From a virus, in IMG/VR virus record IMGVR_UViG_3300025815_000091, positions 1-26,612 of that record: 26,612 nucleotides of DNA. The stretch is one strand, 5' to 3'. Position numbers and translations under genes: made by a program. Under the pieces are notes generated by a model that made no database searches, was not told where the DNA came from, and saw only the letters and a list, made by a program, of their open reading frames with translations. Below are positions 340-22,460 of the stretch, in pieces (position 1 is the stretch's first letter; each line of letters opens with the position of its first letter).

Positions 340-369
340 CACATTCACTCACTGTTTCATCATTTTTAT

Positions 370-398
370 ATAATACAACAGAAATGAATTAATGTCAA
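370..398 (-). promoter_or_regulatory. Sigma70-type promoter (P2)
   Basis: On the minus strand: TTGACA (393-398), 17-bp spacer, TATTAT (370-375). It lies about 30 bp upstream of the 52-residue gene. It shares the TATTATATAAA and TTGACATTAATTC surroundings with P1, P3 and P8, so it belongs to the second promoter subfamily in this window. Confidence 0.75.
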
Positions 399-2606: not shown

Positions 2607-2864
2607 TTAACCAGTCTTTTCAGACATTGCATGTCTTAGAATGGTCTCGTACTTCTCAACCTTCTTGCGAAGGAGTAGTACTTCTTCATAATAATCTTCA
2701 GTCCAATGGAGATCGCGATTTTCCGTTTCTCTTGCTTTTGCAAGATCAAGACATGCGTCCTGCAACCATGCTTTCATCAGTGGATCAATCTGCATGTTCC
2801 ACGTTTGATTTAGACACTGACGAATAAGGTATTCTGCATTATTAATAAAATCGATGGTATTCAT
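2607..2864 (-). CDS. Hypothetical helical protein (85 aa)
   Basis: A small protein starting MNTIDFINNAEYLIRQCLN and predicted to be mostly helical. The C-terminal third (YYEEVLLLRKKVEKYETIL) reads as a short coiled coil. Its ATG overlaps the stop of the upstream 129-residue gene (ATGA), arguing that both are translated as a coupled pair. No family is recognised. Confidence 0.65.
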   Translation of the reverse strand: MNTIDFINNAEYLIRQCLNQTWNMQIDPLMKAWLQDACLDLAKARETENRDLHWTEDYYEEVLLLRKKVEKYETILRHAMSEKTG

Positions 2865-3250
2865 CCTCGCCTCTTTCCAGTGGTTGGATCATTAGCGTCT
2901 TCTTTAGATAGTACCTGTAGACCACCTTTGTTATACGCTTGACCGACAACATATTGAGAACTATACATCAGTTTTGTCTCTCTGTCAACTGATTTATTCG
3001 TTTGAATCGGTACAATTTTGTTACTGAGAGGAATTTGGTCGGGGATGCTGGATTCGAACCAACGACCTGACGCTCCCAAAGCGCCCGCTCTACCAGACTG
3101 AGCCAATCCCCGTTTATCTGCATGAACACCCATCTTACGAAGCCATTTATCATGTTCGATATCGGCTTGTAATTGACGTTTGGTCTTTTTAGATTTACGT
3201 TTACGAGTGGATGTTGTTGTCATCCACGGTCCCACAAGATGCATACTCAT
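2861..3250 (-). CDS. Phage hypothetical protein with a tRNA-Pro gene in its reading frame
   Basis: The frame stays open for 129 codons through the same-strand tRNA-Pro gene. Residues 1-46 are a Lys/Arg-rich head (RKRKSKKTKRQ, DIEHDKWLRKMGV), and residues about 47-71 are the translated tRNA (SGRAGALGASG, RWFESS). Residues about 85-129 are a conserved-looking tail (YVVGQAYNKGGLQVLS, NDPTTGKRR) of the kind I recall from marine phage proteins. A GGAG site lies five bases before the ATG, and the stop overlaps the next gene (ATGA), so both ends look like a real gene. Either the tRNA inserted into a linker without breaking the frame, or the head and tail are two gene remnants. RNase P and 3'-end processing of the tRNA would cut this mRNA. 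Confidence 0.5.
   Translation of the reverse strand: MSMHLVGPWMTTTSTRKRKSKKTKRQLQADIEHDKWLRKMGVHADKRGLAQSGRAGALGASGRWFESSIPDQIPLSNKIVPIQTNKSVDRETKLMYSSQYVVGQAYNKGGLQVLSKEDANDPTTGKRRG
3036..3112 (-). tRNA. tRNA-Pro(UGG)
   Basis: A complete cloverleaf: acceptor CGGGGAT/ATCCCCG, anticodon arm GGCGC-TTTGGGA-GCGTC giving TGG, T-loop TTCGAAT, A73 and encoded CCA. It lies wholly within the open reading frame 2861-3250 on the same strand. Confidence 0.95.
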
Positions 3251-3264
3251 ATCATCTCCAAAAA

Positions 3265-3341
3265 TGGTGCTGGTGGAGGGACTCGAACCCCCGACCAGAG
3301 GTTTACAAAACCCCTGCTCTACCCAACTGAGCTACACCAGC
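3265..3341 (-). tRNA. tRNA-Thr(UGU)
   Basis: A complete cloverleaf: acceptor GCTGGTG/CACCAGC, D-stem GCTC/GAGC, anticodon arm GGGGT-TTTGTAA-ACCTC giving TGT, T-loop TTCGAGT, A73 and CCA. The next gene's Shine-Dalgarno begins only a few bases after the CCA. Confidence 0.95.
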
Positions 3342-3345
3342 AAAT

Positions 3346-3420
3346 TGGCTCCTGGAGAGGGATTCGAACCCCCGACCGGGCGGTTAACAGCCGCCAGCTC
3401 TACCACTGAGCTACCCAGGA
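3346..3420 (-). tRNA. tRNA-Asn(GUU)
   Basis: A complete cloverleaf: acceptor TCCTGGG/TCCAGGA (one G-T), anticodon arm GGCGG-CTGTTAA-CCGCC giving GTT, T-loop TTCGAAT, G73 and CCA. Four bases separate it from tRNA-Thr. Confidence 0.95.
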
Positions 3421-3429
3421 ATAAACTCA

Positions 3430-3519
3430 TTAAGAGAACGCTACCATATACATTAGGATAACTGCCATCAGACAAGAGAAAGCAGTAAACTCGACCAACA
3501 TCTTCAGAGCATTCAACAT
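3430..3519 (-). CDS. Single-span membrane mini-protein (29 aa)
   Basis: A very short gene between promoter P3 and the tRNAs. An AAGGAG site is followed by three ATG codons in a row. The third (3519) has 7-base spacing and gives MLNALKMLVEFTAFSCLM and so on; the first would add two Met. Almost the whole product is one hydrophobic helix (about residues 7-28). Small membrane peptides like this are common among early phage genes, but the role here is unknown. Confidence 0.5.
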   Translation of the reverse strand: MLNALKMLVEFTAFSCLMAVILMYMVAFS

Positions 3520-3548
3520 CATCATTCTCCTTCGTTCATCATGTTTAT

Positions 3549-3577
3549 ATCATACCAAAAGAATTAATTTTTGTCAA
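3549..3577 (-). promoter_or_regulatory. Sigma70-type promoter (P3) for the tRNA/PurS unit
   Basis: On the minus strand: TTGACA (3572-3577), 17-bp spacer, TATGAT (3549-3554). It overlaps the 3' end of the upstream gene: the -35 box encodes its last residues (VDK) and the stop follows within the spacer. About 24 bp past the -10 (ATATAAACATGATGAACGAA) are nearly identical to the region after P8. Confidence 0.75.
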
Positions 3578-3794
3578 CCAATATCTCAAAATCTGGATCA
3601 TTTTTTAAAGCGATCCAACGATGGTCACCCGTGGGGCTAAACACCATTGCAAAAGGTCCTGGCAGCGAACGGTGTTTGGTTGTTTGAATACGGTCGCGAA
3701 TCTCGCTGATCCAAAACTCCGTACCAAACTGCTGGATGCGATTCTTACCGTGTTTGCTCTTACCTTTGAGCTGGATTTTATCACCTATTTGCAT
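3564..3794 (-). CDS. Small basic protein, paralogue of the gene at 12415-12639
   Basis: I chose the start MQIGDKIQLKGKSKHGK (76 aa) because AAGGAG lies 8 bases upstream; an upstream in-frame ATG at 3827 has no such site. The shared core with the gene at 12415-12639 is KHGKNRIQQ, a central W-[FV]-I/V-x-E-x-R strand and a C-terminal RW(I/V)xLxNDP(D/N)FE. The pattern (GD.I.LKGK at the N-terminus, short strands) suggests a small beta-barrel of the SH3/KOW kind, but I cannot assign a family. It has its own promoter, P4. Confidence 0.7.
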   Translation of the reverse strand: MQIGDKIQLKGKSKHGKNRIQQFGTEFWISEIRDRIQTTKHRSLPGPFAMVFSPTGDHRWIALKNDPDFEILVDKN

Positions 3795-3838
3795 AGTATC
3801 TCTCCTTTGCTTGCTCCGTTGTCTCACTCACTATAATC

Positions 3839-3867
3839 ATTATCTTACAGTGGAGATTAAATGTCAA
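3839..3867 (-). promoter_or_regulatory. Sigma70-type promoter (P4)
   Basis: On the minus strand: TTGACA (3862-3867), 17-bp spacer, GATAAT (3839-3844), then GATTATAGTGAGTGAGAC. It shares TTGACATTTAATCTCCA with P5-P7. It lies between the stop of the gene at 3874-4152 and the gene it drives (3564-3794). Confidence 0.75.
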
Positions 3868-3873
3868 GCAAAA

Positions 3874-4152
3874 TTATTCATATCCCCGAAAATTTTTGAT
3901 AGACCACTTTTCAACAATCGGCGTACCATCGCCGCCTTCGTCTACGACCACATACGCTACAGTCTTCTTAACAAGACCAATACGAGTTTCGTCGTTACCA
4001 ACGAAAATCTTGTGGGGATATTCATCAGCAAACCAATCATCATTCTCAGCAAACTCAAACAAGTGATCATACTCCTTTTCTCGGAACTGACCCAGAACTT
4101 TAGAGTCAATTCCAATCGTGCGACGGTCGTTGGTATAAGGAGCAAACGCCAT
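3874..4152 (-). CDS. Hypothetical protein (92 aa)
   Basis: Starts MAFAPYTNDRRTIGIDSK with a GGGAGG site 6 bases upstream. The longer frame beginning at 4197 overlaps the previous gene without a site. Features: an acidic centre (EFAENDDWFADEYPHK), a strand-rich second half (KIFVGND, RIGLVKKTVAYVVVDE) and the C-terminal TPIVEKWSIKNFRGYE. The last 19 codons are duplicated as a remnant at 4438-4494. It is the second gene of the P5 unit, one base after the stop of its partner. Function unknown. Confidence 0.65.
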   Translation of the reverse strand: MAFAPYTNDRRTIGIDSKVLGQFREKEYDHLFEFAENDDWFADEYPHKIFVGNDETRIGLVKKTVAYVVVDEGGDGTPIVEKWSIKNFRGYE

Positions 4153-4153
4153 A

Positions 4154-4369
4154 TCAATCCTCCCACTTGACAGTGAAACTAACCTTCGCCTCAGCATTCC
4201 GCTTGGCGATATCGAAGGTTTCGTACATCTCTACGAAATTTTTGCCAATCCAAAGTTCGTATTCATCATTAATGTTTTCAATGATATCAACTTCACTTTC
4301 GGCATTGGTAGCCATCCAAGCGGTCTTGATATCGATGGCTTTGGTGTCGTATTTGGCAAATTTCATCAT
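4154..4369 (-). CDS. Hypothetical protein (71 aa), first gene of the P5 unit
   Basis: Starts MMKFAKYDTKAIDIK. An in-frame upstream ATG at 4405 lies inside the -10 box and could not be on the transcript, so the ATG at 4369 is chosen. The weak purine-rich GAGAGAGACAGAAAC serves as ribosome-binding site. The product has repeated strand-like segments (AWMATNAESEV, YELWIGKNFVEMYETF, AKVSFTVKWED) and no Cys. A small single-domain protein of unknown family and likely early expression. Confidence 0.6.
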   Translation of the reverse strand: MMKFAKYDTKAIDIKTAWMATNAESEVDIIENINDEYELWIGKNFVEMYETFDIAKRNAEAKVSFTVKWED

Positions 4370-4403
4370 GTTTCTGTCTCTCTCTGTCTCATTCACTATA
4401 ATC

Positions 4404-4431
4404 ATTATACTCGATGGAGATTAAATGTCAA
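4404..4431 (-). promoter_or_regulatory. Sigma70-type promoter (P5) with palindromic -10 region
   Basis: On the minus strand: TTGACA (4426-4431), 16-bp spacer, TATAAT (4404-4409). The -10 is half of the perfect palindrome TATAATGATTATA (4397-4409). From here to the ATG the sequence (4366-4431) is identical to that of P6 (4728-4793). Confidence 0.8.
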
Positions 4432-4494
4432 GCAAAATTATTCATATCCCCGAAAATTTTTGATAGACCACTTTTCAACAATCGGCGTACCATC
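4415..4494 (-). repeat. 80-bp duplication of 3851-3930
   Basis: Identical to 3851-3930 at a distance of 564 bp. It carries the -35 half of the promoter spacer plus the last codons and stop of the gene at 3874-4152. Together with the repeated promoter-leader it brackets two small genes with homologous ends. Confidence 0.9.
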
Positions 4495-4503
4495 ACAACC
4501 ACA
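4438..4503 (-). pseudogene. 3' remnant of a copy of the 3874-4152 gene, in frame behind a TGA
   Basis: Encodes CGCDGTPIVEKWSIKNFRG plus YE and a stop. The last 19 residues equal the C-terminus of the gene at 3874-4152. It is in frame with the gene at 4504-4731, separated only by that gene's TGA stop. Readthrough would give a 97-residue fusion. I interpret it as the leftover end of a displaced gene. Confidence 0.7.
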
Positions 4504-4731
4504 TCATCCGATCGTGATGGGGTAAGAGTGGCTATCGTCATCAATGGATGCGACGGATTCGATGAGAGACTTGCACTCCGCGAAGGATGCCCACCGCCCC
4601 GCATAGTCGCCGTATTTTACGAACCAAGTTGAAGGATCGTCATACGCCCGCTCGATATAGGCGACTGGCGAGGTGTTCGTCGTTTTGTGGGCTCCGGGGC
4701 AGAGGCATGTGGTTTTTACGCGGCTGGTCAT
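4504..4731 (-). CDS. Hypothetical protein (75 aa)
   Basis: Starts MTSRVKTTCLCPGAHKTTN at the end of the shared promoter leader (P6); the in-frame ATG at 4767 overlaps the -10 box and is rejected. Visible features are a CLCPGAHK motif near the N-terminus and WFVKYGDYAGRWASFAECKSLIES, a compact mixed segment, then an acidic tail. Its base composition is more GC-rich than the genes on either side, which suggests a different origin. Its TGA stop is followed in frame by the remnant at 4438-4503. Function unknown. Confidence 0.6.
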   Translation of the reverse strand: MTSRVKTTCLCPGAHKTTNTSPVAYIERAYDDPSTWFVKYGDYAGRWASFAECKSLIESVASIDDDSHSYPITIG

Positions 4732-4765
4732 GTTTCTGTCTCTCTCTGTCTCATTCACTATAATC

Positions 4766-4793
4766 ATTATACTCGATGGAGATTAAATGTCAA
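4766..4793 (-). promoter_or_regulatory. Sigma70-type promoter (P6) with palindromic -10 region
   Basis: On the minus strand: TTGACA (4788-4793), 16-bp spacer, TATAAT (4766-4771), inside the palindrome TATAATGATTATA (4759-4771). The promoter and leader are identical to P5 over 66 bp. Confidence 0.8.
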
Positions 4794-4801
4794 CAGTTTT
4801 T

Positions 4802-5182
4802 TTATGCAATCTCCAAATTAAGTTCGTCCACCTCATCAAAACCAAAACTTGCAACCATGTGGTACATGCCGTTCTCATCCATGATCACATCACCAACACT
4901 CAGGCTGTGCATGGGAAGAAACCGTTCGATGTTCTCTTCTGGACCCATATTACCAACATGGAACACACCATCAAGGCTATTAGCGGTGATGTTGCTGACA
5001 TGCTCATAGTAACCTTTCTCAAAGGCTTCCTTGACCAGATGTCCAACAGGTTTACCAAACGACATATCAATCTTCATACGCAGCACGTTCTTAGAAACAG
5101 CGCCATGGTCACCGGTGCGGTTGATGGTGTCAACTTCTTCATCGGTGAGGTTGATCTGGAAAACTTTGTAAATGCCTGTCAT
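4802..5182 (-). CDS. Conserved phage hypothetical protein (126 aa)
   Basis: Starts MTGIYKVFQINLTDEEVD; the in-frame ATG at 5218 lies in the -10 box of P7. The N-terminal part resembles a common phage pattern (YKV.QI.LTD.EVD.IN). The C-terminal part has NIERFLPMHSLSVGDVI, then GMYHMVASFGFDEV, a pair I associate with a widespread phage protein of unknown function. It is single-domain, without signal or membrane segments. It stands alone behind P7 and upstream of P6. Confidence 0.7.
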   Translation of the reverse strand: MTGIYKVFQINLTDEEVDTINRTGDHGAVSKNVLRMKIDMSFGKPVGHLVKEAFEKGYYEHVSNITANSLDGVFHVGNMGPEENIERFLPMHSLSVGDVIMDENGMYHMVASFGFDEVDELNLEIA

Positions 5183-5216
5183 GTTTCTGTCTCTCTCTGT
5201 CTCATTCACTATAATC

Positions 5217-5244
5217 ATTATATACGGTAGAGATTAAATGTCAA
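5217..5244 (-). promoter_or_regulatory. Sigma70-type promoter (P7) with palindromic -10 region
   Basis: On the minus strand: TTGACA (5239-5244), 16-bp spacer, TATAAT (5217-5222), inside the palindrome TATAATGATTATA (5210-5222). The leader to the ATG is the same as in P5 and P6; only the spacer centre differs. Confidence 0.8.
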
Positions 5245-5252
5245 CAGTTTTT

Positions 5253-5579
5253 TTACGATTTTGGAGATTTTTTTTCGGGCTTGGGCTGTACTGTTACCTC
5301 ATGAAACCCTTCACCGGCAATCGTGGCACAAATCGTTTTTTGTCTCTCTATATAACCAATACGAACAATGGTAAATGAACCCGTTTCAACATTTGCCCAT
5401 ATTTCCACCATAAATCTGCTATTGTCCGTAATTCCTCTATATAAAACTTTTTCTTCATATGTCTCAATAAGAGGTGTGATAGCATCATCATAAGGAACAC
5501 AGGTAACTCGTTGAGCAGCGGCGGTGTTAGTGAAACCTACTGAAAACAGCAGGGTTAGGATGAACAAGATTCTTTTCAT
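5253..5579 (-). CDS. Secreted phage protein (108 aa)
   Basis: Starts MKRILFILTLLFSVGFTN and continues TAAAQ, a clear signal peptide with a probable cleavage site after residue about 22. AGAGGA lies 7 bases before this ATG; an in-frame ATG at 5600 has none. The mature part contains LIETYEEKVLYRGIT, MVEIWANVETGSFTIV and a Cys pair, and ends in a Lys/Pro tail (PKPEKKSPKS). Small exported proteins with an 'EIWAN.ETGSFT' segment are, as I recall, common in marine T4-like phages, with unknown role. The first 53 bases overlap the 3' end of the nuclease gene in another frame. Confidence 0.75.
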   Translation of the reverse strand: MKRILFILTLLFSVGFTNTAAAQRVTCVPYDDAITPLIETYEEKVLYRGITDNSRFMVEIWANVETGSFTIVRIGYIERQKTICATIAGEGFHEVTVQPKPEKKSPKS

Positions 5580-6228
5580 CGTAGAATCCTCTAATAGCAT
5601 CGACCAGCGGAGAGATATAATCGTCTCTCTTGCCGAGAAAAATTTGTGGTTCCGATTCCTGGTCTACTGCTATTAAAACGACAAATCGATCCACCGGCGT
5701 ACCTGTTAGTTCTTCAAACATCACACAATATGCGGTACATTGCATAAAATAATTATCGATCCAATCACGTTTCTTTAATTTACGAGAAGTCTTGAAATCA
5801 ACGATTGACGCTTTACCATTCCATTTACAGACAAGATCTACTCTACCCGCTATACCAAGATACTCAGAATATAACGGAACCTCTTGCCCATAAACCTCTT
5901 CTATCATACTATCTAGTGTATTTTGAACACTTAAAAACATCTCCTTATCTAAAGGAGACTTGAAAACAGGTTCAACATTATTTATATAGTCTTCACAAAT
6001 TTTATGAAGCCTAGTACCTCTGGAAGATGCTTGTCCTGAAATTCGATTTGCCTCTTCTTCACCAACTTTTTTTCGCCATGCCATAATACCGTCACGAGAC
6101 AACCGACCAAGAACAGTGGTGATAGAAGGTAAGTCACCGGCAGGAGTATGATACATCCTGCCGGTTTCCTTATTCGTTGTTGCCTTGATATCAGGTAAAC
6201 TTATTTGGCGATGAATAAATTTCATCAT
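5527..6228 (-). CDS. PD-(D/E)XK family exonuclease (RecB/MGME1-like)
   Basis: A 233-residue single-domain nuclease. Visible catalytic pattern: H75 in GTRLHKICED, E122 in SEYLG, D131 in GRVDLV, D144-x-K146 in IVDFKTS and Q163 in YFMQCTAY. This matches the RecB-like/mitochondrial MGME1 subgroup, which degrades ssDNA or resects ends. The N-terminus has a YHTPAGDLPSITTVL strand typical of the phage versions. ATGA overlap with the gene upstream. A role in host DNA degradation or recombination is inferred from the family and the location near PhoH and RNase H. Confidence 0.85.
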   Translation of the reverse strand: MMKFIHRQISLPDIKATTNKETGRMYHTPAGDLPSITTVLGRLSRDGIMAWRKKVGEEEANRISGQASSRGTRLHKICEDYINNVEPVFKSPLDKEMFLSVQNTLDSMIEEVYGQEVPLYSEYLGIAGRVDLVCKWNGKASIVDFKTSRKLKKRDWIDNYFMQCTAYCVMFEELTGTPVDRFVVLIAVDQESEPQIFLGKRDDYISPLVDAIRGFYDEKNLVHPNPAVFSRFH

Positions 6229-6590
6229 CTTGGATAACCTTCATCAAACTCCCATCCTAAAAAAGTGTTATCGTTTTTATTAGGAAATAAAGGGTCTACA
6301 TCGCCGTAACCATATAAAAAATCATTAGCATACTTTATTTTGGATACTTGTTTTGTAATTTCTTTATTCAACTGATCTAGTGTCGAGGGCGGAACTAGAT
6401 TAACTCCAACCTTTTCTCGCCAACGAGTACCGTGAACTACATTCATATAACAATCTAATTGTTTTTCAATCAGTTCCAATAGATACTCATTTGTATATTT
6501 TCGAAGTTCATCTGCTTTATATGGAATTTCCCGATCTTCTTCATTACGTACACAGTAATCTAAAACAAGTTCAATCAACTTTTCGCGCAT
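6225..6590 (-). CDS. Hypothetical protein (121 aa)
   Basis: Starts MREKLIELVLDYCVRNEED with GGGAG about 9 bases upstream. The N-terminal 60 residues are helical, with YLLELIEKQLDCYM, and the C-terminal part is Asp/Gly/Tyr-rich (YGYGDVDPLFPNKND, GWEFDEGYPR). No family is recognised. It lies between phoH (two bases) and the nuclease (4-base overlap), so it is co-expressed with both. Confidence 0.65.
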   Translation of the reverse strand: MREKLIELVLDYCVRNEEDREIPYKADELRKYTNEYLLELIEKQLDCYMNVVHGTRWREKVGVNLVPPSTLDQLNKEITKQVSKIKYANDFLYGYGDVDPLFPNKNDNTFLGWEFDEGYPR

Positions 6591-9711: not shown

Positions 9712-10554
9712 TTAAAACTCCTGAATATCAGACATTAGATTTTTCAACCTCTTCTTAATAAAATAGTTCAACAACTTTGATTTATCCTTTTTTTCATAGT
9801 TCTTATATGTATCTATAACTTGTGTACGGATTGTTTCTGGTATACGAGATAGATCAATCAACTGAATGTTTCTCATATAGTTTCGATGTACTTCACCATC
9901 AAAAGGAGTGATACCACGATTCATATCATCAATCATTGCAGCAACCTTTTTCTTTGTTAATGGACGCTGTCTAGCACCAACGACGAAAACATCATCACGA
10001 GAAAGAATATTAGGTACTCCGTCGCCGGCATCGCCCCTGATAACATGTTCGTAAAGGTAAGCCATAGGATCTTCAACTCTAATAAACTTCTTCGTAATAG
10101 GGGAATACTGTTCAACATTCTTATACCTTTGCAATTGTGAAAAGTCTTTATCGCCAGAGACAATCATGATCTTTTCACCATTACCACCAAATCGTTCGAC
10201 CATTGTAGCAATGATGTCATCAGCCTCGGCAGATTCGATTTGAATTAAGACATATGGAAAATTATCTCGAATCTCTTCTTTGATTGAATTCAGCGTATCA
10301 AAGATAAGATTCCAGTCGAGTGGTGATTCTTCTCGACTCTTCTTACGATTTGCCTTATAGTAAGGAAAGATTTGACGACGCCAATAGTTCTTGTCATCGC
10401 AACAGAGTATCATTTCTCCGTATTCAGAGAACCGTGTCTTAAAGCTACGGATTGAGTTTAGTACCATGTGACGAATAAGATCTTCACTAAAATCTTTATT
10501 GCCACTCGCCAGAATGCCTGATAGACATACCTGTGAAAAATCTAACAAAATCAT
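9712..10554 (-). CDS. rnh: T4-type RNase H / 5'-3' exonuclease (FEN family)
   Basis: 280 residues, near the 305 of T4 RNase H. Acidic metal-binding residues in order: D5 (LLDFSQ), D53/D54 (LCCDDKNYWR), E110/D112/D113 (ESAEADD), D135/D137 (SGDKDFSQ) and D175/D178 (GDAGDGVPN). Basic bridge residues are present in YYKANRKK. The family removes RNA primers and flaps during lagging-strand synthesis. The helix-hairpin region IRGDAGDGVPN is typical. It is a good marker that this is a T4-like replication system. Confidence 0.92.
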   Translation of the reverse strand: MILLDFSQVCLSGILASGNKDFSEDLIRHMVLNSIRSFKTRFSEYGEMILCCDDKNYWRRQIFPYYKANRKKSREESPLDWNLIFDTLNSIKEEIRDNFPYVLIQIESAEADDIIATMVERFGGNGEKIMIVSGDKDFSQLQRYKNVEQYSPITKKFIRVEDPMAYLYEHVIRGDAGDGVPNILSRDDVFVVGARQRPLTKKKVAAMIDDMNRGITPFDGEVHRNYMRNIQLIDLSRIPETIRTQVIDTYKNYEKKDKSKLLNYFIKKRLKNLMSDIQEF

Positions 10555-11987: not shown

Positions 11988-12413
11988 TCATTCATTACCA
12001 GTCACCCTAGCGTTACCAGTCACCCAAGCGTTATCATACACCCTAGCGTTATTATACACCCTAGCGTTATCAATCACCTTAACGTTATCATACACCTTAG
12101 CGTTACCGTACACCCTAGCGTTATCAGACACCCAAGCGTCACCAGTCACCCAAGCGTTACCAGACACCCAAGCGTAATCAGACACCCTAGCGTAATCAGA
12201 CACCTCAGCATTACCAGACACCTTAGCGTAACCAGTTACCCTAGCGTTATCATACACCTCAGCGTTATCATACACCTCAGCATCAGGTCCAACATAAGCG
12301 GTCTCAGAAACAGTGGCGGTATCAGCAACCCAACCGCCTCCGTTAGGATGACGGTGAGCGGGAACCGGACCGTTGCCAAAATCAAAAGTAGTCATTTCAT
12401 TAATATCGTTCAT
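11988..12413 (-). CDS. Hexapeptide-repeat (left-handed beta-helix) protein C, 141 aa
   Basis: The third of three tandem paralogues. Start MNDINEMTTFDFG, with AAGGAG 7 bases upstream. Residues about 7-45 are the common head (TFDFGNGPVPAH, GGGWVADTATVSETAYVG). The remainder is about 15 hexads of the form V-[STY]-[GD]-[NDY]-A-x (for example VYDNAKVSGNAE), the left-handed parallel beta-helix pattern. There is no acyltransferase catalytic histidine or other domain, so this looks like a bare structural helix. The end GGTAATGAATGAAGGA carries its stop and the next gene's Shine-Dalgarno. Role unknown; fibre-like or polymer-forming surface protein is a guess. Confidence 0.75.
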   Translation of the reverse strand: MNDINEMTTFDFGNGPVPAHRHPNGGGWVADTATVSETAYVGPDAEVYDNAEVYDNARVTGYAKVSGNAEVSDYARVSDYAWVSGNAWVTGDAWVSDNARVYGNAKVYDNVKVIDNARVYNNARVYDNAWVTGNARVTGNE

Positions 12414-12414
12414 T

Positions 12415-12639
12415 TTAGACTCCTTTTACCCATTCAAAATTTGGGTCATTTTGTAATTCTACCCAACGTCCGTCAAAATCCTTATTATGCATAGGACCAT
12501 CAGTTTTGTGTTCACTACGGAGATGCATTTTACCACCTCGTACTTCTTGTACAAACCACAATTTACCATGTTGCTGAATACGGTTTTTACCATGGCGTGT
12601 CTTGCCTGTAAGAACAACTGTATCATTAACTTGTAGCAT
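12415..12639 (-). CDS. Paralogue of the 3564-3794 small protein (74 aa)
   Basis: Start MLQVNDTVVLTGKTRHGK, chosen because AAGGAG lies 8 bases upstream. It shares RHGKNRIQQ, a central WFVQEVR strand and the C-terminal RWVELQNDPNFEWV with the gene at 3564-3794 (roughly half the residues identical by eye). It sits between two hexapeptide-repeat genes, with its stop followed almost at once by the next gene. A small beta-rich domain is likely; no function is known. Confidence 0.7.
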   Translation of the reverse strand: MLQVNDTVVLTGKTRHGKNRIQQHGKLWFVQEVRGGKMHLRSEHKTDGPMHNKDFDGRWVELQNDPNFEWVKGV

Positions 12640-12640
12640 T

Positions 12641-13276
12641 TCATTCACTCCTTCTTTCATTACCAAACACCTGAGCGTTACCAGACACCACAGCGTTACC
12701 AGTCACCCAAGCGTTACCGTACACCACAGCGTCACCAGACACCTTAGCGTAACCAGTCACCACAGCGTTACCATACACCCTAGCGTTACCAGTCACCCTG
12801 GCGTAATCAGACACCTCGGCGTAACCATCCACCACGGCGTAACCATCCACCACGGCGTAACCAGACACCCAAGCGTAATCAGACACCCAAGCGTTACCGT
12901 ACACCACAGCGTCACCAGACACCTTAGCGTAACCAGTCACCACAGCGTCACCAGACACCTTAGCGTAACCAGTCACCACAGCGCCACAATACACCATAGC
13001 GTTACCAGACACCCTGGCGTCACCAGACACCCAAGCGTAATCAGACACCCTAGCGTTATCATACACCCTAGCGTCACCAGTCACCACAGCGTCACCAATC
13101 ACCACAGCGCGACCAGACACCTTAGCGTTACCAGACACCATAGCGTTACCAGACACCATAGCGTCAGGTCCGACGTAGGCGGTTTCAGAAACAGTGGCGG
13201 TATCCGCAACCCATCCACCACCGTTAGGATGCTGGTGGGCGGCGACCAGGCCGTTGCCAAAATCAAAAGTAGTCAT
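12641..13276 (-). CDS. Hexapeptide-repeat (left-handed beta-helix) protein B, 211 aa
   Basis: The middle paralogue. Start MTTFDFGNGLVAAHQHPN, with AAGGAG 8 bases upstream. The head is nearly identical to paralogue A (FGNGLV.AHQH.NGGGWVAD). About 28 hexads follow ([A]-x-V-[STY]-[GD]-[NDY]) with only scattered irregularities (YCGAVV, GRAVVIGD), ending VFGNERRSE, where the junction has drifted by a frame. A regular helix of roughly nine turns is expected if three hexads make one turn. No signal peptide, no catalytic domain. Confidence 0.75.
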   Translation of the reverse strand: MTTFDFGNGLVAAHQHPNGGGWVADTATVSETAYVGPDAMVSGNAMVSGNAKVSGRAVVIGDAVVTGDARVYDNARVSDYAWVSGDARVSGNAMVYCGAVVTGYAKVSGDAVVTGYAKVSGDAVVYGNAWVSDYAWVSGYAVVDGYAVVDGYAEVSDYARVTGNARVYGNAVVTGYAKVSGDAVVYGNAWVTGNAVVSGNAQVFGNERRSE

Positions 13277-13289
13277 CTCATTCACTCCT

Positions 13290-13895
13290 TCATTCATTAC
13301 CAGTCACCACAGCGTTACCAGACACCATAACGTTATCATACACCATAGCGTTACCAGACACCCAAGCGTTATCAATCACCTTAGCGTTACCAGACACCTC
13401 AGCGTCACCAGTCACCTCAGCGTCACCAGACACCACAGGGTCACCAGTCACCCAAGCGTTACCAGACACCCAAGCGTTATCAGTCACCCAAGCGTTACCA
13501 GACACCTCAGCGTTATCATACACCTTAGCGTTACCAGACACCACAGCGTAACCATACACCTTAGAGTTACCAGACACCCAAGCGTTACCGTACACCTTAG
13601 CGTTACCAGACACCTCAGCGTCACCAGTCACCACAGCGTAACCAGACACCACAGCGTAACCAGACACCACAGCGTAACCAGACACCACAGCGTAACCAGA
13701 CACCATAGCGTTACCAGACACCATAGCGTTATCATACACCACAGCGCAACCAGACACCCTAGCGTTACCAGAAACCACAGCGTTAGGCCCAACATAGGCG
13801 GTCTCAGAAACAGTGGCGGTATCAGCAACCCATCCACCACCATTAGAATGCTGGTGGGCGGGGACCAGGCCGTTGCCAAAATCAAAAGTAGTCAT
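13290..13895 (-). CDS. Hexapeptide-repeat (left-handed beta-helix) protein A, 201 aa
   Basis: The first gene of the array, behind promoter P8. The transcript should begin near 13919, so the ATG at 13895 (MTTFDFGNGLVPAHQHSN) is chosen over one at 13919. After the 38-residue head come about 27 hexads, including a run of near-identical VVSGYA units. The repeat keeps V at position 1 and A at position 5 throughout. The end (VVTGNE, stop) is the same junction sequence as paralogue C and provides the Shine-Dalgarno of paralogue B. Confidence 0.75.
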   Translation of the reverse strand: MTTFDFGNGLVPAHQHSNGGGWVADTATVSETAYVGPNAVVSGNARVSGCAVVYDNAMVSGNAMVSGYAVVSGYAVVSGYAVVSGYAVVTGDAEVSGNAKVYGNAWVSGNSKVYGYAVVSGNAKVYDNAEVSGNAWVTDNAWVSGNAWVTGDPVVSGDAEVTGDAEVSGNAKVIDNAWVSGNAMVYDNVMVSGNAVVTGNE

Positions 13896-13925
13896 CTCAT
13901 TCACTCTTTCGTTCATCATGTTTAT

Positions 13926-13954
13926 ATAATACCAGAGATTTTATTTTTTGTCAA
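13926..13954 (-). promoter_or_regulatory. Sigma70-type promoter (P8) for the hexapeptide-repeat array
   Basis: On the minus strand: TTGACA (13949-13954), 17-bp spacer, TATTAT (13926-13931), then ATAAACATGATGAACGAA, nearly the same as after P3. The -35 box codes for VDK near the end of the upstream gene, whose TAA stop lies in the spacer. Confidence 0.75.
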
Positions 13955-14687: not shown

Positions 14688-15281
14688 ATGAAAACCGCAA
14701 TACCGTTTTTGGTATTTATCGTGGTTTTTATGTTTTCATCTTCTGTGTTTGCTCAAAGCACTATTACTACAAATAACAATAACAATAATGTGAATACGAG
14801 TAATAGTAGCAGTACTAGTAATGTCGTTACTGACACTGATACAAAAACGATAGTGATTAATCCACCACCCAGCGCTATTTCTCCAAGTATTAATAGTAAT
14901 AATATGGATCTTTGCACTACGGGCGCGAGTACTGCTGTACAAACACAGATTTTAGGTCTCAGTAAAGGGACCACTGTTCGTGACCCAAATTGTGAGAGAT
15001 TGAAGTTGAGTAAAACCCTTTATGATATGGGCATGAAAGTCGCCGCTGTTAGTGTTCTCTGTCAAGATAGAAGAGTGTTTGATGCCATGAAAATGGCAGG
15101 TACACCCTGTCCTTATCTTGGTCAAATTGGACAACCAGCCGCTGACCAGTGGGATGCAAACCCCGAAATGGTTCCAGATGCAGAATCAAAAGATCTAGAT
15201 GGAGACAAAGTAGATGACGATGAAGCTAAAGTATTTGGCGTCGGCATTCTTGGCATTCTTGGTTTGCTTTTGCTCCTATAA
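14688..15281 (+). CDS. Exported virion-type protein with C-terminal membrane anchor (197 aa)
   Basis: Signal peptide MKTAIPFLVFIVVFMFSSS with cleavage after VFAQ or so. An Asn/Ser/Thr-rich linker follows (residues about 24-60), then NPPPSAISPSIN, MDLCTTGASTAVQTQILG, GTTVRDPNCERLKLS, KVAAVSVLCQD and GTPCPYLGQIG, with four conserved-looking Cys. An acidic spacer (DLDGDKVDDDEAK) leads to a C-terminal hydrophobic segment, GVGILGILGLLLLL. I recognise the central block as a common protein of marine T4-like phages. First gene of the late operon, so structural or virion-associated. The C-terminal membrane segment is coded by DNA that also encodes the next gene's signal peptide. Confidence 0.85.
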   Translation: MKTAIPFLVFIVVFMFSSSVFAQSTITTNNNNNNVNTSNSSSTSNVVTDTDTKTIVINPPPSAISPSINSNNMDLCTTGASTAVQTQILGLSKGTTVRDPNCERLKLSKTLYDMGMKVAAVSVLCQDRRVFDAMKMAGTPCPYLGQIGQPAADQWDANPEMVPDAESKDLDGDKVDDDEAKVFGVGILGILGLLLLL

Positions 15282-17565
15282 CGCTAGTGCTCAAACACAA
15301 ACATTTGACACCTCTACAGGTGCTCCTACAATCGTTGAACATAATATCAGCGACGATGGTTACGCACAGGTAAATCTAGGATTTTCATTTCCTTTCTATG
15401 GAAATACTTATACCACATCCTATATGCATAGTAATGGTGTTGTTCAATTTGTAAATCCAACGACCCATTGGTGTTGTAATGGTATTAATTTAGACACCAA
15501 TTCAACCCTTAGTTCGTCTTATAACTATGCAATTGCTGTATTATGGACAGACTTGATAGACAATTCAACAGAAGGAAGATTTTACACACAGGGTAATGAA
15601 AATTACCAAAGATATCAATGGAATAATATAAGTGAATATTATAACAGTAATCGGAATACAGTAGGTCTAGAAATTCGTCCAGATGGTAGTTTTGATATGT
15701 ACCATCAAATGATCAACATACAAAACCATGCTTTCACTATTGGTGTTATAGGCGATGCTACACAAGGCGAATGGACACAATATCAATATACAAATCCAGG
15801 TGGTACATTATATAATTTTGGATCTTCTACAGCCGATGATAGAGTAACTGGTTGGTCAGCGACAAATAACGTGTATAGTTATAGTGATGGAACTGCTGGT
15901 ACTGCATCTGCTTCTGATCCTTGTGATAGTGATCCATTATACTCAGAGAATTGTTCTGGTTACGTTCAAGCATACTATAATCAACAGTGTGAACTAGACG
16001 CTCTGTATGATAGTGGATGTTCAGGATATGCTGATGCCTACTTTAGTCAACAGTGTTCTTTAGATGCTTTATATAATGAAGATTGTTCAGGATATGCGGA
16101 AGCTTATTTCGATCAACAGTGTTCTTTAGACCCTTTATATAACGAAGACTGTTCAGGATATGCAGAAACTTATTTTAATCAACAGTGTTCTTTAGACCCT
16201 TTATATGATATTGAATGTACTGGTTATGCAGAAACTTATTTCGATCAACAATGTTCTTTAGACCCTTTATATGATACTGACTGCACTGATTATAATGAAA
16301 CATATTTCAACCAACAGTGTTCTTTAGATCCTCTTTATAATAGTGAATGTCCTGGATACACACAGGCATACTACGATCAACAATGTTCTTTAGATCCATT
16401 ATATGATTCTAGTTGTCCGGGATATAAGACCGCTTATTATAATCAGCAATGTAGTCTTGACGCTCTCTATGATACAGAATGCCCAGGTTACGCAACTGCT
16501 TACTACAATCAACAATGTAGTCTTGACGCTCTCTATGATACAGAATGCCCAGGTTACGCAACTGCTTACTACAATCAACAGTGTTCTTTAGATCCATTAT
16601 ATGATACAAGATGTCCGGGTTACGAACAGGCGGTTATCGCTAGAAACTGTAATATAGATCCTTTGTTTAGTCCTACATGTGATGGATATGCAGCAGCACT
16701 AGCAGCGCAACAAGAGAAACAAGCAGAAGAAACAAAAACCGCTGAAGACGAACAACAAGTAGAGACAGTAGCAGAAGCAAATCCAATAGAAGAGACTGTA
16801 GTTGTTGCAGTCACAGAAACAAATAAAGAAGAGATTACAACATCAGTAGTTGAAGTTGAAGGTATTCCTAATGTAACTGTAGTTATACCAGAAGTATCAC
16901 AACTAGATACAGCAACAGCGGCGTTTACCGCACGAGTAGAAACTTTACAAGCAGAAACTAGACAAGAGGTTCAACAAGCTGTAGCAGCAGAACAACAAGC
17001 AGTAGTCGCAGAGATTGAGTCTGAGGTAGAACAAGAAATTGAACAACAGATAGCAGCAGAAGTAGAGACTAATACTGAAGAAGTCAAAGAAGAAACTAAG
17101 GAAGAAACAAAAGAAGAAATTAAAGTTGCCGCTGTAGAAGAAAAGAAAGAAGAGAAGAAGGAGGAAAAGAAAGAGGAGACTAAAGAAGAAGTAAAAGAAG
17201 AGAAAAAAGAAGAACCCAAAAAGAAAGAAGCAAAGAAGGAAAAAGAAAAACCTTCTAAAGAAGTACGAATTAAACAAGCTATACAGGAACGTATTGAGTC
17301 ATTAGCAGAAAAGATGGGTGAGTCAGCAGCACTTGAAACACAAGTAGCAGCACAGGCATCAATCGTCGCTATGATGGGATATGTTCCGGGATTTAAAGAT
17401 TATACTGGCGTGCAGTTACAGGATAAACCTTTTTATGAACAAACACAGATTCCTGGTGGAAGTATACAGGATAACAGATTTATTAGTCGATTCTTGATGA
17501 ATGATCAGAAGTTTAATGAGTTAGAAAGATCACAATTCAATAATAGGGTAATAGGTACAAGGTAA
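15214..17565 (+). CDS. Large virion-type protein: NIDO-like domain, twelve 22-aa Cys repeats, K/E coil (783 aa)
   Basis: Start ATG with GGAG 9 bases upstream. Signal peptide about 1-26 (LASAFLAFLVCFCSYNASA). Residues about 30-215 resemble a NIDO-type beta domain (DDGYAQVNLGFSFPFYGNTY, HSNGVVQF, IAVLWTDL, VGLEIRPDGSF). Residues 237-500 hold twelve 22-residue repeats with Cys at positions 1 and 11 (C-S-L-D-P-L-Y then C-P-G-Y, ending in QQ), likely disulphide-linked after export. A Gln/Glu/Ala coil (about 500-620) and a Lys/Glu-rich stretch (620-690) follow, then a conserved globular end with AAQASIVAMMGYVPGF. Similar proteins occur in marine T4-like phages. A fibrous surface or tail role is inferred. 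Confidence 0.85.
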   Translation: MTMKLKYLASAFLAFLVCFCSYNASAQTQTFDTSTGAPTIVEHNISDDGYAQVNLGFSFPFYGNTYTTSYMHSNGVVQFVNPTTHWCCNGINLDTNSTLSSSYNYAIAVLWTDLIDNSTEGRFYTQGNENYQRYQWNNISEYYNSNRNTVGLEIRPDGSFDMYHQMINIQNHAFTIGVIGDATQGEWTQYQYTNPGGTLYNFGSSTADDRVTGWSATNNVYSYSDGTAGTASASDPCDSDPLYSENCSGYVQAYYNQQCELDALYDSGCSGYADAYFSQQCSLDALYNEDCSGYAEAYFDQQCSLDPLYNEDCSGYAETYFNQQCSLDPLYDIECTGYAETYFDQQCSLDPLYDTDCTDYNETYFNQQCSLDPLYNSECPGYTQAYYDQQCSLDPLYDSSCPGYKTAYYNQQCSLDALYDTECPGYATAYYNQQCSLDALYDTECPGYATAYYNQQCSLDPLYDTRCPGYEQAVIARNCNIDPLFSPTCDGYAAALAAQQEKQAEETKTAEDEQQVETVAEANPIEETVVVAVTETNKEEITTSVVEVEGIPNVTVVIPEVSQLDTATAAFTARVETLQAETRQEVQQAVAAEQQAVVAEIESEVEQEIEQQIAAEVETNTEEVKEETKEETKEEIKVAAVEEKKEEKKEEKKEETKEEVKEEKKEEPKKKEAKKEKEKPSKEVRIKQAIQERIESLAEKMGESAALETQVAAQASIVAMMGYVPGFKDYTGVQLQDKPFYEQTQIPGGSIQDNRFISRFLMNDQKFNELERSQFNNRVIGTR
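15922..16713 (+). repeat. Twelve 66-bp tandem repeats encoding 22-aa Cys modules
   Basis: Twelve in-frame units, each beginning at the first Cys codon. Units 9 and 10 (16450-16515 and 16516-16581) are identical at 65 of 66 bases, while the others differ at many synonymous sites, so that pair is a recent duplication. Confidence 0.9.
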
Positions 17566-22354: not shown

Positions 22355-22431
22355 TATACTACCTTTATATATTTCCCAAACAGTCGTTTCATAAGACATA
22401 GGTCTCCATAGAAACTGAACTCACTTTAATC

Positions 22432-22460
22432 ATTATAGTACCATGCTGATTAAATGTCAA
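22432..22460 (-). promoter_or_regulatory. Sigma70-type promoter (P9)
   Basis: On the minus strand: TTGACA (22455-22460), 17-bp spacer, TATAAT (22432-22437), then GATTAAAGTGAG. The TTGACATTTAATC start and the TATAATGATTA.AGTGA end match P4-P7 although it is 17 kb away. The TGA stop of the upstream gene (22457-22459) is inside the -35 box. Confidence 0.8.

Follow-up and report, generated by a model that had tools for sequence, protein, structure and literature searches.

Near-identical promoter-leader cassettes as probable exchange points for small accessory genes in a T4-like phage

Introduction

Why should three unrelated small genes of one phage each begin behind almost the same stretch of promoter and leader DNA? 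The question is raised by a promoter cluster in a 26.6-kb piece of a virus genome (26,612 nucleotides of IMG/VR record IMGVR_UViG_3300025815_000091, hereafter the window), which carries the T4-like genes PhoH and exonucleases as well as five tRNA genes at its left end. An initial annotation of this DNA had proposed both gene swapping favoured by a shared 5' end and a common on/off switch acting through a palindrome over the -10 box. It is argued here that the three cassettes, P5, P6 and P7, are very probably recent copies of one promoter and leader, and that recombination between such copies adds, deletes and swaps modules in a T4-like phage. The locus thereby offers natural before-and-after comparisons of the exchange of small accessory genes in T4-like phages, a class of genes that includes host-takeover and anti-defence proteins.

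The main comparison was made with G003, a relative of 126.9 kb that is approximately 96% identical to the window in this region and encodes a T4-type portal, major head protein, sheath, baseplate wedge and DNA polymerase, which identifies the carrier as a T4-like myovirus. No annotated close relative was found among isolate phages by DNA and protein comparison; window positions 3560-5610 gave no DNA match to them and a single, distant protein match (Salicola phage SCTP-2). All genomes compared are metagenome assemblies, in which assembler errors are possible at repeats of 25-66 bp. One of the related phages, L163, carries a permuted tmRNA of alphaproteobacterial type (4069-4443, minus strand; Rfam alpha_tmRNA, 107 bits), which suggests an alphaproteobacterial host for that phage.

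Anatomy and copy number of the type A cassettes

P5, P6 and P7 all lie on the minus strand and have 62 bp in common, which begin with TTGACA and end immediately ahead of the start codon; together with the ATG, this agrees with the length of about 65 bp first reported. The layout is in each case TTGACA, a 16-bp spacer, TATAAT, then GATTATAGTGAATGAGACAGAGAGAGACAGAAAC and the ATG, with a purine-rich leader that extends right up to the start codon. Over the entire 62 bp, P6 matches P5 without a difference, as had been claimed, and P7 departs from them in the spacer alone. Upstream of both P6 and P7 stands TAAAAAAACTG, which starts at the stop codon of the upstream gene. Two further promoters, P4 and P9, are diverged members of the same family, designated type A, and P4 to P7 all fall within 1.4 kb:

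5183..5244, minus strand: P7 type A cassette; -35 box at 5244-5239, -10 box at 5222-5217, palindrome at 5210-5222; in the same place in G003
4732..4793, minus strand: P6 type A cassette; identical to P5
4370..4431, minus strand: P5 type A cassette; -35 box at 4431
3795..3867, minus strand: P4 diverged type A cassette; -10 box GATAAT, spacer of 17, a different ribosome-binding end (GGAG)
22400..22460, minus strand: P9 diverged type A promoter; upstream flank the same in G003, where two extra ORFs follow

The 17-mer TATAATGATTATAGTGA, with up to three mismatches allowed, occurs eight times on the minus strand of the window and never on the plus strand, and a reversed control gave no occurrence. 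A model of the type A family scores 42-49 bits at P4 to P7, a range far from that of shuffled windows, which never reach 14. The sigma-70 consensus is matched at 12/12 positions in P5 to P7 and at 11/12 in P4 and in P3 and P2, two members of the second family described below. Genome-wide, five type A copies were counted in the window and four in the whole of G003, two of the latter with a perfect palindrome. The motif is far above chance, but the regulon that the initial annotation had envisaged reduces to a small family: a local duplicated cluster with one outlier.

No terminator-like hairpin was found on the minus strand from 3800 to 5300, where only TAAAAAAACTG or the tail of an upstream gene (gene X, below) precedes the -35 box, and the predicted RNA fold of the P7 leader is no better than that of shuffled sequences (z=0.12). 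A loose-consensus scan for single promoters returned 21 sites against 21 expected in such AT-rich DNA and was for that reason set aside; the conclusions rest on cassette copies and genome comparisons. The near-consensus sigma-70 promoters, the small accessory genes behind them and the adjoining tRNA genes point to promoters that would act early and, by their consensus match, strongly. In L019 (9003-9060), a member of the same virus population, P4 carries a P7-type spacer and -10 box plus one extra G, possibly through gene conversion between cassettes or as an assembly chimera.

Genes carried by the type A cassettes

The genes in and around the cluster are as follows:

4802..5182, minus strand: P7 gene, 126 aa; weak YodL-like match (E=0.0045, below the cut-off)
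4504..4731, minus strand: P6 gene, 75-aa ORFan; 56% GC, absent from G003
4154..4369, minus strand: P5 gene (MMKFAKYDTKAI...); kept in G003 and in the L163 lineage
3874..4152, minus strand: gene X (MAFAPYTND...); phrog_23785, E=2.4e-13
4432..4494, minus strand: remnant of the gene X 3' end before P5; matches the sequence ahead of P4 at 100%
3564..3794, minus strand: P4 gene; promoter-gene module missing in L163, L164 and L166

The proteins behind P5, P6 and P7 show no mutual similarity, which bears out the description of the cargo as different unrelated small genes. Homologues of the P7 gene were found at 59 viral loci (53-100% identity). The P6 gene, with a GC content of 56% against 38% for the window, has no homologue in the matching region of G003 and no relative outside its own virus population among viral contigs and isolate phages, where no donor was found. 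The dN/dS ratio is 0.11 for the P5 gene, from few changes only, and 0.20 for gene X. An 80-bp repeat, 100% identical, links the regions upstream of P4 and P5 (3851-3930 and 4415-4494); it consists mostly of the gene X tail, which is complete ahead of P4 and survives as a stray fragment ahead of P5, and therefore records a duplication of that tail.

Gain, loss and swap of modules between relatives

Five comparisons between related phages, spanning several lineages and three cassette families, revealed modules that are present in one genome and absent or swapped in the other, with the junctions lying inside a cassette or at its edge. The simplest is that with G003, which lacks the 362-bp P6 unit and in which the P5 gene follows directly on the P6 upstream flank: window positions 2861-4431 correspond to G003 32662-34229 and positions 4728-6327 to 34164-35771, and the 66-bp overlap is the cassette. 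A collapsed repeat is an unlikely explanation for this junction, because the cassettes and flanks carry independent lineage-specific substitutions.

At P9, the upstream gene and the promoter are common to the window and G003 up to ..ATTAAAGTGAGT, after which G003 has approximately 630 bp more, with two ORFs, the first of them paralogous to the P7 gene (36%, E=4e-21), and the window retains just a 3' remnant of the second; the window's downstream junction shows only about 5 bp of similarity. In the lineage of L163, L182, L183, L185 and L186, the P7 upstream flank runs into a cassette of the P6/G003 type, as would be expected after a crossover between P7 and P6, and from there, at the ATG, into an unrelated gene (MKFDNAK...). 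L163 becomes homologous to the window again within the P5 leader and stays so through gene X as far as the TTGACA of P4; in L163, L164 and L166 alike, the gene X tail leads straight into a cassette of the second family, type B, and the P4 module is absent, its boundary being the -35 hexamer. The last comparison is the closest, L182 and L163 being 99.9% identical over 3144 bp and 99.6% beyond, with one extra 375-bp promoter-gene module in L163 flanked by two copies of TTGACAAAAAACTTCCATGATGTTA; the repeat behind it is about 29 bp, compared with 66 bp for the window and G003. Two sequences, L095 (in which the cassette is joined to a different gene body) and L019, were left out of the recombinant count as possible assembly chimeras.

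Cassettes are one exchange route among several, because some indels avoid promoters: those between the window and G003 at approximately 423-1380 and 2140 have boundaries away from promoters, and a gene replacement at 2561-2861 is bounded by start codons. In the first of these regions, the window holds a perfect 75-bp direct repeat (467-541 and 661-735), a fragment of a 266-aa gene (581-1381) copied just past its end; G003 lacks that gene wholly and retains its ribosome-binding site.

A model of module exchange and its alternatives

Heavy recombination is a trait of T4-like phages. The cassette would be a compact host-type (sigma-70) promoter with a 5' leader that fills the gap from one stop codon to the next start codon, with one or two small accessory genes driven from each copy. 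Recombination between identical copies, whether homologous or over short homologies and presumably by the phage's own machinery, would move whole promoter-gene modules, and every gene would keep a working promoter and leader after the exchange, so that the cassette would serve as a recombination docking site too. Modules could be added, deleted or swapped in this way because identical cassette copies recur. The P6-P5 pair is probably the record of one such event, as a cassette-bounded unit, holding the GC-rich, foreign-looking gene and the duplicated gene X tail, is present here and absent in the relative. The likely order is a tandem duplication via unequal crossing-over at the cassettes, followed by replacement of the duplicated genes with a foreign ORF. 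That the junctions in several relatives fall within a cassette or at one of its edges speaks for the initial proposal that gene swapping is favoured by the shared 5' end.

The clustering of P4 to P7 within 1.4 kb and the gene X tail copied in register with its cassette could have arisen by local tandem duplication and later decay, with no exchange between lineages and no special part for the promoter. Such a history is improbable given the distant copy P9, the other lineages in which the same flank and cassette lead to other cargo, and breakpoints that recur at TTGACA or ATG. That a short repeat unit stands ahead of unrelated genes would also suit an autonomous small mobile element, MITE-like or associated with a homing endonuclease, inserting before genes; however, neither terminal inverted repeats nor target-site duplications can be seen, the copies always sit exactly between stop and start codon in the coding orientation, and the repeats flank the cargo and leave genes uninterrupted, which makes an element of this kind highly improbable. 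Convergence is scarcely more credible as a general account. TTGACA and TATAAT are the consensus, strong host promoters look alike, and similar -10 regions occur in unrelated phages, but the copies agree with one another through spacer, leader and flanks (62-78 bp, identity up to 100%), far past what a promoter consensus demands; for P5 to P7 convergence is thereby refuted, and it is a possibility for the P9 leader only. Exchange of modules between cassette copies is thus the reading preferred here.

The palindrome in the -10 region

As first noted, the TATAAT of P5 to P7 lies inside a perfect 13-bp palindrome, TATAATGATTATA. Of the four G003 copies, two have it in perfect form, as do the lineages L095 and L163. 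A dimeric repressor or activator bound there, over the -10 box, could switch a regulon of accessory genes on and off, and the inner TAATGATTA, kept in all five type A copies of the window, might be taken in its favour. P4 and P9 do belong to the pattern as diverged type A copies; nevertheless, the symmetry is broken in both (GATAATGATTATA and TATAATGATTAAA, respectively) and compensating changes are absent. The palindrome was found neither in type B nor in other promoters of the same phage, and in the window and G003, TATAAT followed by N-ATTATA has no occurrence outside these type A cassettes. In distant phages, homologues of the P7 gene are preceded by different sequences that lack the palindrome, and many of these sequences have strong promoters of their own. 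By number, too, palindromes are unremarkable, since the window holds 10 odd palindromes with arms of at least 6, against 9.1 +/- 2.7 in shuffles.

A further argument for an operator comes from L095, whose block from -10 to ATG is identical to that of P7 (40/40) at a gene identity of 86%. This leader would be either constrained or recently exchanged, and its conservation is no pointer to the palindrome because it extends fully to the ATG. The motif adjoins TATAAT in unrelated phages as well, in a set picked by that very pattern. The palindrome is probably a by-product of the AT-rich -10 region, and a switch of the proposed kind is hard to credit; with the symmetry lost in P4 and P9 and missing across the genome, the operator reading is rejected.

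If an early regulon under operator control is sought, phages with P7-gene homologues offer a stronger candidate than the palindromic type A, in the form of a cluster of early-type promoters (G007, the record of L136, at ~76800-82700; and G008 and G014, L138). Many of these promoters hold, in the spacer between the -35 and -10 boxes, a 14-bp palindrome (GTAAGGATCCTTAC, GTAAGACGTCTTAC and GTAAGGCGCCTTA) centred on GTAAG, in which both sides change symmetrically, with a mean of 2.4/5 matched pairs at the proper centre versus about 1 at slid centres.

Type B and further cassette families

Type B (TTGACAAAAA...TATTATATAAACATGATGAACGAAGGAGTGAATGA), the second family of cassettes, is represented in the window by P2, P3 and P8:

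3530..3577, minus strand: P3 type B cassette (TTGACAAAAATTAATTC..TATGATATAAACATGATGAACGAAGGAG); 3' limit approximate
13915..13954, minus strand: P8 type B cassette, before a beta-solenoid repeat gene; 3' limit approximate
350..398, minus strand: P2 type B-like cassette; 3' limit approximate

G003 has eight type B copies, in several places, compared with four of type A, and among viral contigs type B stands ahead of nine unrelated ORF clusters; it is thus more dispersed than the palindromic type A. Tentatively, it may be supposed that several families (type A, type B and a TTGACAAAAAACTTCC type) coexist as terminator-less cassettes running from stop to start codon, that they recombine across families at the shared -35 hexamer, and that single genes turn over frequently within populations.

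Directly after a type B cassette, L163 has a hammerhead type III ribozyme-like match (9890-9927, minus strand; 31.3 bits, E=1.4e-4, short of the gathering score), and the same sequence occurs in L164. In the window, 11988-13919 contains three tandem, GC-rich beta-solenoid (YdcK-like) repeat genes, which differ in repeat number among relatives and at whose N-termini the type B leader is itself part of the reading frame (M..NERVNEMTTFDFGNG).

Relation to known systems

The nearest parallel is the promoter-early stem-loop (PeSL), which joins a sigma-70 early promoter to a stem-loop and is reportedly treated for T4-like phages by Arbiol et al. in 2010 and Comeau et al. in 2014. A description of PeSLs is given in PMC4503421. 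Type A resembles them as a set of repeated sigma-70-like early promoters, predicted to be strong from their consensus match, that stand in several near-identical copies amid small, variable accessory genes of a T4-like phage, where modules are gained, lost and swapped with junctions within the repeats. It differs in having no stem-loop or terminator and in including a conserved ribosome-binding leader up to the start codon. The type A system would therefore appear to work like PeSLs as a terminator-less variant, and it is classed apart from them because the defining stem-loop is absent; a terminator directly before an early promoter does occur in the related phages L104 and L119, and also in L166 near a type B gene. 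The type A cassettes suggest that promoter and leader alone, in the absence of the terminator hairpin of PeSLs, are enough to mark module boundaries.

Early promoters of T4 and their relatives in five T4-like phages are likewise served by the host polymerase and stand ahead of novel ORFs, many of them ORFans (PMC1524935), but what is described there is a promoter consensus and not near-identical cassettes flanking swapped genes. In HGTV-1, conserved upstream motifs made of a TATA-like box and an inverted repeat were proposed to aid genome shuffling (PMC3950731); the repeated promoter-like motif and its suggested role are alike, whereas HGTV-1 is an archaeal virus with an archaeal promoter, likened here by description and not by sequence.

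The type A and type B cassettes can serve as search strings for listing accessory modules in uncultured phages. Elsewhere in the window, a secreted-looking protein of 783 aa (15214-17565), for which no PHROG match was found, contains 66-bp (22-aa) repeats with Cys at 15931-16656.
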